A stretch of DNA of 64,000 nucleotides from Heterocephalus glaber (lineage: Eukaryota > Chordata > Mammalia > Rodentia > Bathyergidae), in contig NW_004624732.1 of assembly GCF_000247695.1 (NCBI RefSeq), positions 23,845,500-23,909,499 of the forward strand, in the 5' to 3' direction. Both the position numbers and the translations under genes were made by a program. The notes below the pieces were generated by a model. The model was not told the origin of the DNA. It was given only the letters and a program-made list of their open reading frames with translations, and did not search any database. The stretch's first letter is position 1; each line of letters begins with the position of its first letter. Below are positions 5,262-44,500 of the stretch, piece by piece.

Positions 5262-5334
5262 TGGGGGAGATGTAGCTCAGGGGTAGAGCATTTATCTATC
5301 ATATATAGAACCCTGGGTTCCATCCCTAGCTGCA

Positions 5335-5365
<31 letters not shown>

Positions 5366-13000: not shown

Positions 13001-16000
13001 CATTTTGGAGAGATTGCTGTGAGCCTTACTACAACAACGGTTATGGGCCAGTTGTCCCCTTTTCGGAAGATCTCAGCTTGAGTGAGGAAAACAAGTAGGT
13101 TCTCGGTTTGCACAGGTTACAGAGTTCCAGGACGGAGTTGTAACTGGCCTGAGAAGTGACTGGTAAATAGAAGAGTTGATTAAGAAATAAAAATTATTAC
13201 CACTGTTATTATTTTGTCTTACTGGGGATTGAACCCAGAGCCTTCACACTGAGCTACATCCCAACCCTTTTCATTTTTTATTTTGAGACAGAGTGTCTCT
13301 CAGGTATGCACCACCATGATGGGCTAAAAAAATTATTGTTCAGATTATTCTTCTAAACGTAAGACTTTATGAATAGTCTTCTGTGGATTGAAACCAAATG
13401 GCTTCAAAAGGCCACTTTCTTGGTGCTAGTCTCTTCCTCACTTAGGATTTCTGCAGATAGTAGATTACTGCACTTTTACCTCCTGGACTTGATCGAATAG
13501 ATCTCCTAGAATCGGGAAGGAGTGATTTCAAGCACCTAGAAGGCTTGTGGCCCGAGGGAGCAGAAGCCCCGCTGGCCAGTGGCTTGCTGTGATCTTTGGA
13601 GCCGCTCGAATCTGTGACCAAGCCCAGCCGCAGCCCCTTCACTCAGCCTGTGGGAAGGCTCCCTGACTGTGGCTTCCTGTGTGTTGCAGTGATGTGCTTG
13701 CTCTGCCCATCTTCAAGCAAGAGGAGCCCCAGTTGTCACCTGAGAACGGGGCCCGCCTGCCACCCCTGCAGTACGTGCTGTGTGCTGCCACATCACCGGC
13801 CGTGAAGCTGCATGAGGAAACCCTGACCTACCTCAACCAAGGTAGTAGCTGGATCTCAGGCTGCGGTGGAATAGGTGTGGGAGGATGGCACCGAGAATGG
13901 GGGGAGGTAGTGTGAAAGACCCATTTGGGCCTCATTTGTGGTCCCAGTGGGTGAGGAGGGTGCTTGGGAGGGAGTACAGGCTTTGATGTCAGACATAGGT
14001 TCAGGTTTCCTTGCTGTGTGATCTTCCTGAACCTCATTGTTTTCATCTGAAAAATGGAAATATGGAAAGCCAGGCATGGTGGTTGGTGGCTCATGCCTGG
14101 GGTCCCAGCTACTCAGGCTGCTGAGGCAAGAGAATTTGGAGCCCAGGAGGAAGCCAAGACGAGCCTGGGCAACATAATGAAATCTGCCTCCAAAAAAAGG
14201 AAGCCTTACTCTATTCTGGGTACAGGCCAACAAACGTGGGGACCTGTGTCCCATCCCACGCGTTGCCCTCATGGTCATGTTCAGTGCCTTTTGGCTGCTT
14301 CTGCTGTTTACTGTGACTGCCACTGGTGTCCTTCTAAGCATAGGCTGAGCACCTTTGGTTGACCAGGTCCGCTGTGTGGCAGGGGTGCCAGGAAGGCCAG
14401 GCTGTGTCCTTGCACAGCACAGGGACTGGGTTCCATCCGTCCCAGGCAGAAGCCCTTAGTGCCAGTGGGGACAAGATTGCTGCCACAACTTGGGAGAATG
14501 AGCTTCAGAACTTGAATTTCTACTGTAGCACTCTGTAGTCCTGATTTTGAGTTAGTTGTCTTTTCTTTTTCCATGAGTAACATGAGAAGTGCGATTTCTT
14601 GTGAAGTTTAAAAAGTGGAAGGGAAATGAAGTGCCTGGCGTGGAAGCAGCTCTTCAATTGCTGGTGCAGTGTCCTGGTGGATGCCGTTCTGTTGTGACTG
14701 TGTGTGTCTGGCGTGCTTCTTCCTCCACTGGGTGTCAAGGCCTCTGGGCCTCCTCTTTAAATGGGAGGCACCGAAGAGCTATAGGCCTGGTGTGGGGAGA
14801 GTTGCGCTGACCTGCAGGTGGCTGTGTGTGGCGTCTTGTCTGTAGCTGGTGCGTGGCCTCCGTTCTGTAGAACTTTGCCTCCTCCTTTTGGGAAGCCGGC
14901 CGGGGGTAGAAGTCCAGTGTGGTCATCAGGGTCTGTCTGCTGAACTGGCCAACTCCTGAGCCGGGAGACTAACTGGGGTTCACAGGTGGCTGCAGCTGGA
15001 GCTCATCGTGCAGGCAGTGCTCTGGGCTTCTGTTGGTCTCACGCAGTTAAGCTGTTGGCATCAGTGTCCCCCTCTGGGGATGGTCCGAAGGCCCATACTT
15101 TGTCCTAGAGGCCTGGCCCACAGAGGAAGGTGACCAGCCCAGGTGCAATAGTGGCTCCGTGTCTGTATTGTTTGTGCAGTGGCCCCTGCCCTTGTTTTGT
15201 TTTTTCGGGGGTGCTGCCATCTTCTGGGTGTCTGCTGTCTTCCTTAACTGGAGCGAAGGAACTGAGTTACATTTTCAGCCTGCTGATTTGATGTTTCTGG
15301 CCACCTCCCGAGGCGCTGCTGAAGTCTGTACGGCCAGACAAGGGTGTTGTGTGTTGTGTGTCTGTCATCATTGCCTGTCTGGCCCCGACTTGTAAGGCCA
15401 TCAGCTGGGTTCTCTACACCACTCTCCATTTTTTTTAGTTAGCCCAATTGGGACAATGTTTGGCAGTCAACATACTGGGTCTTTTAAAGGGTTTTAAAGA
15501 GGAGTTAGAGCTGGGAGTGTAGCTCAGTGTAGACTGCTTCGCTAGCATGGGTGATGGCTTGGGGTCCATCTTGGCACTACAAAATAAATAAATAAGTGAA
15601 TAAATTATCCTCAGTATAGTTAGAAGAGGGAAAGAGTTACCCTAGGGTGTCATTATCTTGTGTTAATTTCATGTATTTGCTTTAGATATTTTTACTTATT
15701 TATTTTGTTTTTTTCAGTCATGAGATAGAACCAATGCCTAGGCCATGCTAGGCCAGCACTCTACCACCAAGCTACAACCCTAGGCTAGAACTGTATTTTA
15801 ATTATATATCATCAAGTCTGTCAATCTGGCCTGGGGTGTCGCTCAGTAGTAAAGCCCATGCAAGGCTCTGGGTTTCATTATGCCACAAAAACAAAACAAA
15901 AGTTTCATTCTTCTAAAATGCTTGGAAATGCCTATCTTCAAATTAGCTTAATAGTTTTTGAATGGTTTTAAAATTTTAACTCTGAAATGCTTTAGGAATT

Positions 16001-41574: not shown

Positions 41575-44500
41575 AGAAAGAGATTGAGGGAGAAATGAAA
41601 GTTTGAGTTTCAGATTGAGAGAAAACATGAATAAAGATGAATGCAAAACCCAGGGAAATCCCAGTAAGGTCTGCAGCTCTGTGGAACACGTACTGTCAGT
41701 GTTACTCTCCGGATGTTCGTAGTATAGTGTAAGTCTGTAAGATGCGATCACCGAGTCATATCTTCATTCAGGTGAGTCTGTAGTTATTAAAAATGAAAAG
41801 GGGGCTGAGGGTGAGAGAGAAGGCGACATTCCAGGTTGAGACTCTGAAAATAACCCATTCCTGCCTCTGTTGCTACCCTTGCACTGTGCAGTGGAGAATT
41901 CTCAGTTGTGATTTTTCAAAATCTGGGTTTGGATTCTTGGAGCAGCTCAATTGCTATTGCTCAGTACTGTTATTTTCCAGCACTGGAGATTTGAAGGCTT
42001 CTCATCCTCAACAAGTTCTTGCTGTCCTCATGGCTTCCAGTCAAAGGAGTCAATCCTGTGAGGGTTCAGGCTCCTCGCAGGATGCACACTTCTCTCATCC
42101 TGCAAAATGTGCTCCTAAATGCCAAGTTATATAAGTTGGTGTCATTTCTGCTTGACAAGTATCAAAAGAAGGAGCAGGTCACCATGAAAGAAATGCTGCA
42201 TGTTCTGCCCCATGATTACCGTAACAACCTCCCTCTGAACTTTGGGGAACTCTGTGAGTCCATGTATCTGGGCTTTGGCATTAAAATCAGGAAAGTGAAT
42301 TACTCTGGCAATACATATGAGCTAGTCCTCATTTTGGGTCTTACATGCAGTAGCATACTAGATGGGGATGATGAAAGAATCATTCTCAAAATCAACGTCA
42401 TTGTATTCGTCCTGTCTCTAATTTTCATGCAGGGCAACCATATCAGTGAGGAGGACCTAACTCAAAAAGTGAAAAGATGGGACATATTAGCTCAGTTTGA
42501 GCATTTTCATTTTGAGGAAGCCTGGAAATTCATCACTGAGGATTTAGTATGGGAAGAGTACCTGATGTACCGGCAGATTCCTAACAGTGATCCTGCTCTC
42601 TATGAGTTCCTGTGGGGTCCAAGGGCCCACGCTGAAGCCAGCAAGATGAAACTCCTAGTTCATATGGCCCATCTTAATGGCACAGATCCCAAGTCTTACC
42701 GAGAACTATATGAAGAGGCTTTGGAAGCAGAACTAGGTCTAGGTATAGAGCCAGGGTTCCTGAGAAACGGGATATTGCCCAAAGGTGTCAGTGAATGTGT
42801 TCTCCCCCGAGAAGAAATGAGGCCCATTTCCAGTCTCTGTGGAGAGCAGGCAGTTTTCTAGGAAGGGAAGGGCCAGGAGAGGGATAAAATAGCACACATA
42901 GCATCTTTCTGTCTCTTCTACTTGGTTTACTTGGAAATGGACAGGGGTTTTCTTTATGGTTTTTTGAAGTATCGGTCCTTTTGGGGGAGACTGAAGTAGC
43001 TTGCATATTTATTGAATGGTACTGATCTCCTGTGTATTTTTAGTTTTGTGAAGTTGATGTTTGTGTTTTCTGATGGGAATGTGATTCTGTGTGACATTGA
43101 TCACAAATGGAGAGCCTTTTTCATTCAAACGTAACAGTCTTTCCTGTTTTATCAGACAAACAGAAAAACTATTCAATTTATTTATGATAAAATGGGAGTG
43201 GAATAGGAATTTCCTTGAAAATTGTAAGTTTACATCAAGTTAGACGGACCCTAGAAAAAGTGATAAGGATGAAAATCAAATATTGGCTGTTGCTTATTTC
43301 TTTTCCCCTGTTGATCTATACTATTAAACATATTTATTGCAAAAAAAAAATGAAAAGGGGCTGGGATGTGGCTCAGTGGTAGAGCACTTGCTTAGCATAG
43401 GTGGGGTCCTGAGTTCAGCCCCCAAAATTGAAAAAAAAAAAAAGAATTTGATTTTCCAAGTATGATCAAATAATTTATTCTTTCACTTGTAAAGCATCCT
43501 TTATTAACTGTGATATATGCTAGAGTGTTTCATATTTATATTGGGAAAAGTGGACTTCATTTGATATATATCTATCATCTTTCATCCAGGAAGGTGCTGT
43601 GTTCTTTTTATCCAAGTTGTTTTCTGTCATTCCACAAAACATGTGGTTTTCTTCAAGTTCTTTATAGATACTGCTGAGTTTTGTATTGTTTTTATGGATG
43701 GATATTTTTTCCATTTGCATTCTTTCACCTGCTTATCTTGGTTGTATATCACTGGATAGAACCCCACACCCTCAAATACATGGAATTCTTTTAACTGGGG
43801 AGAATGCTTTTAGTTCTGCCACAAGAGACAATGTTTAACAGGCTTCTTCCTTTAAGCTTGCTGTCAGGAGTGGTGTGGTCAGTTATTTACCCAGTACTGT
43901 CAATTTAAGTGTTCTGCATCGAGGTGTGTGGGGGGGTCCCTTGTGAAAACACAGAAGCATGTTCTGTGGTTTTAATGCTAACTTATTTTCTTAGGTTCTA
44001 TGTCTTTGGCCACTGCCAAGATGAAGAATCCCACAGTGCATTCTTTGGGGTATCTGAGGTCCACCAGGCTGAATGGACAGCCCGGGGATTCTGTCTAGAG
44101 AGTGAGCTCAGCTGACAGTAGACTTTTCCTCTCCCCCCTCCCCCCCCCCCCCCTCGCCGCCTGGCTCTCAAGCCGGGACTTGAAGGCTGGAGAAAGCGGG
44201 GTCCCTCCCTCCCCCACCCACCCCGCTCCGAACCTTGAGGCATGGATGGGTACTGAGAGCACTGAGAAGGCTGCTAGCTGGATGACCCCAAATTTGGAAA
44301 TACTCAGAAATGGAAATTGTACTGTTAACTTCCCTCCAGGTCAATCATATGAAATCCGACTGCTGGAGAACCGGAAGTTGGGAGACTTTCAAGATCTAAA
44401 CACAAAATATGTCAAGGTAAGCCTTGTGTGCGGGGGAGCTGCCCACACTTGGAGGTAGGGGGTGTGGGGGTTGGTCGGGGCCTGAGCACTGGGGCTTGCT

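Follow-up and report, generated by a model that had tools for sequence, protein, structure and literature searches.

Introduction

Processed pseudogenes can be pasted into a genome in many copies by the LINE-1 machinery, as with those derived from the mRNAs of ribosomal proteins. The family of MAGE retrocopies that we describe here from the naked mole-rat (Heterocephalus glaber) resembles these pseudogenes in that its members are spliced, A-tailed, flanked by target-site duplications (TSDs), dispersed and neutrally decaying, but it stems from a MAGE gene, and a single rodent carries at least 72 copies, the majority of which extend to the 5' end.

The ancestors of the MAGE subfamilies are reported to have arisen by retrotransposition in early eutherians (PMC3112145). 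The naked mole-rat family shares this route of origin, the retroposition of MAGE mRNA; unlike those ancestors, which became genes, it evolves with an omega (dN/dS) of approximately 1. In the species surveyed by PMC3484994, type I MAGE genes form clusters on the X chromosome. In 2013, MAGE was listed as an expanded cancer-related Pfam family of the naked mole-rat with 56 genes, 27 more than in rat (PMC3852044); neither 'pseudogene' nor 'retro' occurs as a word in the main text of that article. The term 'MAGE' matched no MAGE gene in PMC9944903, and our literature search found no description of a burst of MAGE retrocopies in the naked mole-rat, which does not prove that none exists.

We analysed one member of this family in a stretch of 64,000 nucleotides of naked mole-rat DNA (hereafter the window), in which a preliminary description had noted an open MAGE-domain frame inside TFCP2L1. 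The best explanation, which we hold with strong confidence, is that the locus is a neutral, full-length processed MAGE retrocopy, one of at least 72 from a burst with one main source, whose frame is open by chance and which likely yields no protein.

Results

Anatomy of the insertion

The full-length processed retrocopy occupies 41804..43345 on the + strand of the window and, by comparison with the exons of its parent, consists of the spliced 5' UTR exons 1 and 2, coding exon 3, the 3' UTR and the start of an A-tail, which follows a polyadenylation signal, ATTAAA, at 43323. The parental introns are absent and the three exons are contiguous. Exactly matching 15-bp TSDs, AAAAATGAAAAGGGG, lie on either side (41789..41803 and 43346..43360, + strand), and these are the only two places at which this sequence occurs on the + strand of the whole window. 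The 5' duplication is preceded by TT and the joined empty site reads TT/AAAAATG, of which TT/AAAAA is what we take, from one site and without a control, to be a LINE-1 endonuclease-type site. The copy thus combines the intron loss, exact 15-bp TSD, A-tail and site type of a LINE-1-type processed retrocopy.

Exons of TFCP2L1, located by tblastn with human TFCP2L1 as the query, flank the insert on the same strand: exon 2 at 13691..13843 (3' end approximate) and exon 3, preceded by AG and followed by GT, at 44339..44416, approximately 1 kb downstream of the insert. TSD, A-tail, spliced exons and flanking exons together confirm the earlier reading of a sense-oriented retrocopy in TFCP2L1 intron 2.

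A SINE, presumably ID/tRNA-like, starts right at the 3' TSD (43356-43440), and the MAGE copy seemingly landed at the edge of this older element. Elsewhere in the window, an Rfam tRNA match (32 bits, 5266-5337) is perhaps a tRNA-derived SINE; ARAGORN, run with bacterial settings, called no tRNA, including at this place. A 149-aa ORF holding a TFCP2L1 exon had no match in PDB, and three further window ORFs had none in Pfam.

The open frame and its MAGE domain

The stop-free frame previously placed at 42019-42861 is real and lies within a longer one at 41995..42861 (+ strand; 288 codons from stop to stop), which contains YRQIPNSDPALYEFLWGPRA and matches the Pfam MAGE domain (PF01454) with E = 1.5e-10. 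Its first in-frame ATG, at 42082 with an A at -3, opens 259 aa. Matches of this frame in PDB include human MAGE-A11, A4, B1 and A3, with the best score for MAGE-A11 (160 bits, vs 133 bits for MAGE-B1), and the best protein matches in the database are mostly named MAGE 10/11. These scores and names favour a MAGE-A-like copy over the MAGE-B parentage suggested previously. None of the 101 database protein matches was identical to the window frame.

The native MAGE start codon, at 42030, is in a different frame, which overlaps the domain frame and stops after 34 codons; this remnant of the N-terminal reading frame (42030..42134, + strand) bears out the suspected N-terminal frameshift, which is a 2-bp deletion relative to the family consensus. 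Altogether, the window copy differs from the consensus by 2-bp deletions at ORF positions 66 and 735 (also present in 3/36 and 12/36 aligned copies, respectively, itself included) and by a 6-bp insertion. Because of the deletions, the reported frame departs from that of the parent over approximately 26 codons at its start and 30 at its end. The copy has the same coding and UTR sequence as the MAGE-A10/11-like genes of H. glaber but, unlike them, a broken start frame, and with its N-terminal frame ending after 34 aa and its C-terminus shifted it lacks an intact start-to-stop frame homologous to that of the parent.

A spliced gene on contig C154 as the likely parent

A DNA search of the naked mole-rat genome, in which 40 of 137 candidate places were scored, recovered the window copy and, at 89-93% identity, at least 39 other places, one of them the parent. 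One place, on contig C154, aligns to the window copy from base 190 onward only. The exons lie apart on that contig: exon 1 from 2634396 and exon 2 at about 2641087-2641182, each followed by a GT donor, and exon 3 at about 2643381-2644711, preceded by AG (the bounds of exons 2 and 3 being those of the alignments). Exon 3 carries an intact 261-aa frame identical to a database protein, P0006, named 'melanoma-associated antigen 10-like [Heterocephalus glaber]'. On this sequence evidence, the three-exon MAGE-A10-like gene on C154 is the likely parent of the window copy. Several MAGE matches lie on the same contig.

Relative to the family consensus, the parent (L059, 6382-7712) has 22 nonsynonymous (N) and 5 synonymous (S) changes. 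It thus has no visible constraint since the burst, yet its 261-aa frame is still intact.

Size of the family and ends of its members

A 30-base coding pattern, allowing up to 3 mismatches, was found at 72 places on 52 contigs, including the parent, and a pattern from the 5' end at 63 places; the controls, reversed for the coding pattern, gave 0 in both cases. Both patterns occurred together, with order and strand as expected, at 61 of the 72 coding places, and one further place, on C28, had the 5' end only. The 71 coding places besides the parent and the C28 place give at least 72 retrocopies, most of them complete at the 5' end; these counts are of places in the assembly and may include allelic contigs.

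For sequence comparisons we aligned 36 of these copies: 30 loci chosen by DNA score, the window copy among them, and 6 added from a list of Pfam matches, 5 of which were listed there without stops. The 6 were obtained from 20 further fetched regions, of which 13 duplicated the 30 loci and one, L021, was dropped as a paralogue (74% identity). The MAGE paralogues L001-L008 were left out of the alignment.

The tails of the 36 copies begin at two cleavage sites, directly after TTGCA in 10 and about six bases later in 26. The later site mostly follows TTGCATACCTG, and the genomic sequence of the parent also has TTGCATACCTG there. Three copies (L020, L050 and L054) carry approximately 22 extra bases at the 5' end which match the DNA upstream of parent exon 1, suggesting that the parent transcript may have a second start site. 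A TSD score of at least 10 was reached by 23 of 35 copies, compared with 0.7% of 679 shuffled pairings, and 12 fell below it (the 5'-truncated L025 was not counted). The best explanation for the dispersal of the family is a burst from one main source, the mRNA of the C154 gene.

Divergence and age

The aligned copies differ from their consensus by 2.9-7.2% (mean 4.0%) and from one another by a mean of 7.2%, and their tree is near-star, its internal branches being short apart from those of a few pairs. With a divergence of 3.5% from the consensus, the window copy holds rank 13 among the 36, which rules out that it is unusually young or unusually old. As a rough guide, an assumed rate of 2.2e-9 changes per site and year would turn this divergence into an age of about 16 million years.

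We rejected the shared 2-bp deletions at positions 66 and 735 as clade markers because the copies that carry them are dispersed across the tree; the deletions probably reflect polymorphism of the source or recurrent events. Each of the variants at consensus positions 282, 590, 636, 659, 959-960 and 1088 occurs in approximately 9 to 15 copies, and their combinations conflict with one another, as if the source had been polymorphic or recombining during the burst.

No visible constraint on the domain

The preliminary description had argued that a neutral copy would be expected to collect stops, such that the open domain was either young or under selection, and had proposed dN/dS along the domain as the check. 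We made this comparison over the domain segment with the mutation spectrum of the retrocopy family itself as the null and a grid of omega values in steps of 0.05. Pooled private changes in the 36 copies comprised 250 N, 93 S and 10 stops, giving an omega of 0.99 (about 0.80-1.25). Private changes were spread evenly over the three codon positions (118:114:121) and were as dense in the coding region (0.0147) as in the UTRs (0.0151). Stops made up 10 of the 353 private changes, slightly rarer than the 3.8% expected (P 0.21).

The window copy itself carries 21 N and 5 S changes against the consensus, of which 7 N and 1 S are private. For omega values of 1, 0.5 and 0.2, the probability of seeing 21 or more N is 0.26, 0.011 and 2.5e-6, respectively; at an omega of 0.2-0.3 the observed counts have P 2e-6 to 2e-4. 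Purifying selection, with an omega well below 1, was thus found neither in the window copy (21 N : 5 S) nor in the family (0.99) over this segment. The lack of stops among the 26 substitutions in the segment (P 0.39) allows neutrality without proving it.

Nor do open frames need a special cause. Among the 34 copies with at least 90% of the segment covered (hence without L009 and L025), 9 keep it open, slightly more than the 6.6 expected under neutrality, as do 7 of the 30 loci picked by DNA score alone; the window copy's own chance of staying open by drift was approximately 0.19. Selection on the domain, examined through private and all substitutions, codon positions, coding and UTR densities and open-frame frequency, is therefore not needed to account for the open frame, since omega is near 1, codon positions and densities are equal and open frames are near expectation. 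Of the two options offered earlier, a fairly young copy is borne out, together with neutrality, while a selected retrogene is not; the open domain does not exceed what neutral decay yields in a fairly young copy. Selection that began recently or acts weakly, following a long period of neutrality, would escape these tests.

Discussion

The observations fit a simple sequence of events. The spliced mRNA of the three-exon MAGE-A10-like gene on C154 would have been copied into TFCP2L1 intron 2, probably by the LINE-1 machinery, and the copy would then have drifted neutrally. A copy diverged by 3-4% has a roughly one-in-five chance of an open domain stretch, and the fairly young age of the copies explains why the window frame has not yet closed. 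With the start frame lost, the copy most likely makes no protein; it presumably has no promoter of its own, and as part of an intron it would be removed with it, such that neither transcription nor translation of its own is to be expected.

As a single locus the window copy is ordinary, and the retrocopy family is of more importance. When 28 database proteins (23 from H. glaber) were compared with the fetched copies, 8 corresponded to family retrocopies over their full length at 98-100% (P0004, P0007, P0009, P0010, P0011, P0013, P0016 and P0022), while P0006 is the parent. As the family thus accounts for 8 of the 23 annotated MAGE proteins of the naked mole-rat in this comparison, and hence for at least 8 overall, the published MAGE 'expansion' may be partly composed of neutral retrocopies. 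Claims of gene-family expansion in the naked mole-rat should filter such retrocopies. With its near-star tree and known spliced parent, the family could also serve as a neutral yardstick for rates of substitution and indels in this long-lived rodent.

Other readings assign the window copy a function. The domain frame could be a retrogene, translated from the ATG at 42082 or from transcripts spliced to TFCP2L1, and maintained by purifying selection in germ or stem cells; the open domain, the sense orientation within a gene described as a pluripotency factor, the A at -3 of that ATG and an acceptor-like site ending near 41980 are in its favour. We give this almost no credence: the ratio of 21 N to 5 S speaks against an omega of 0.2-0.3, the start frame is broken with an overlapping 34-aa frame ahead, the C-terminus is shifted and the frequency of open frames is close to that predicted by drift. 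It is scarcely more than conceivable that the insert instead acts as a splice or polyadenylation element, truncating TFCP2L1 transcripts in the naked mole-rat; it does lie in sense approximately 1 kb before exon 3 with ATTAAA at 43323 and an acceptor-like CAG near 41980, but these sites were recognized at consensus level without a control and such sites also arise by chance. We also regard as very improbable the broader proposal of a MAGE-derived, SINE-like family with secondary sources, in which some members whose full-length frame is intact (L036 and L046) still make MAGE proteins in germ cells and the window copy is part of a TFCP2L1 transcript.

A narrower form of this last idea is unlikely but carries some weight, namely that a transcribed retrocopy or a gene duplicate acted as a secondary source besides the C154 gene and spread part of the family. 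In L047 (C16:19514496) and L054 (C16:14181375), whose flanks show no similarity, the same stop (codon 178) and 2-bp deletion occur together with 12 substitutions exclusive to the pair, and L013 and L025, on different contigs, have 16 exclusive substitutions in common; what the former pair shares is left unexplained by a single, always intact source. However, L047 and L054 lie on one contig, as do L033 and L046, and gene conversion may explain both pairs. The extra 5' bases of L054, moreover, match DNA upstream of the parent and would be lacking in a retrocopy from the common 5' end, which argues against a plain retrocopy as the source of L047 and L054. A neutral burst with the C154 gene as its main source remains our preferred reading.

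The pair formed by L033 and L046 on C52 is well supported, and each member has its own target-site duplication. A further copy on the same contig, at C52:8573442, lies approximately 6.6 kb from L033 and may be a local duplication.
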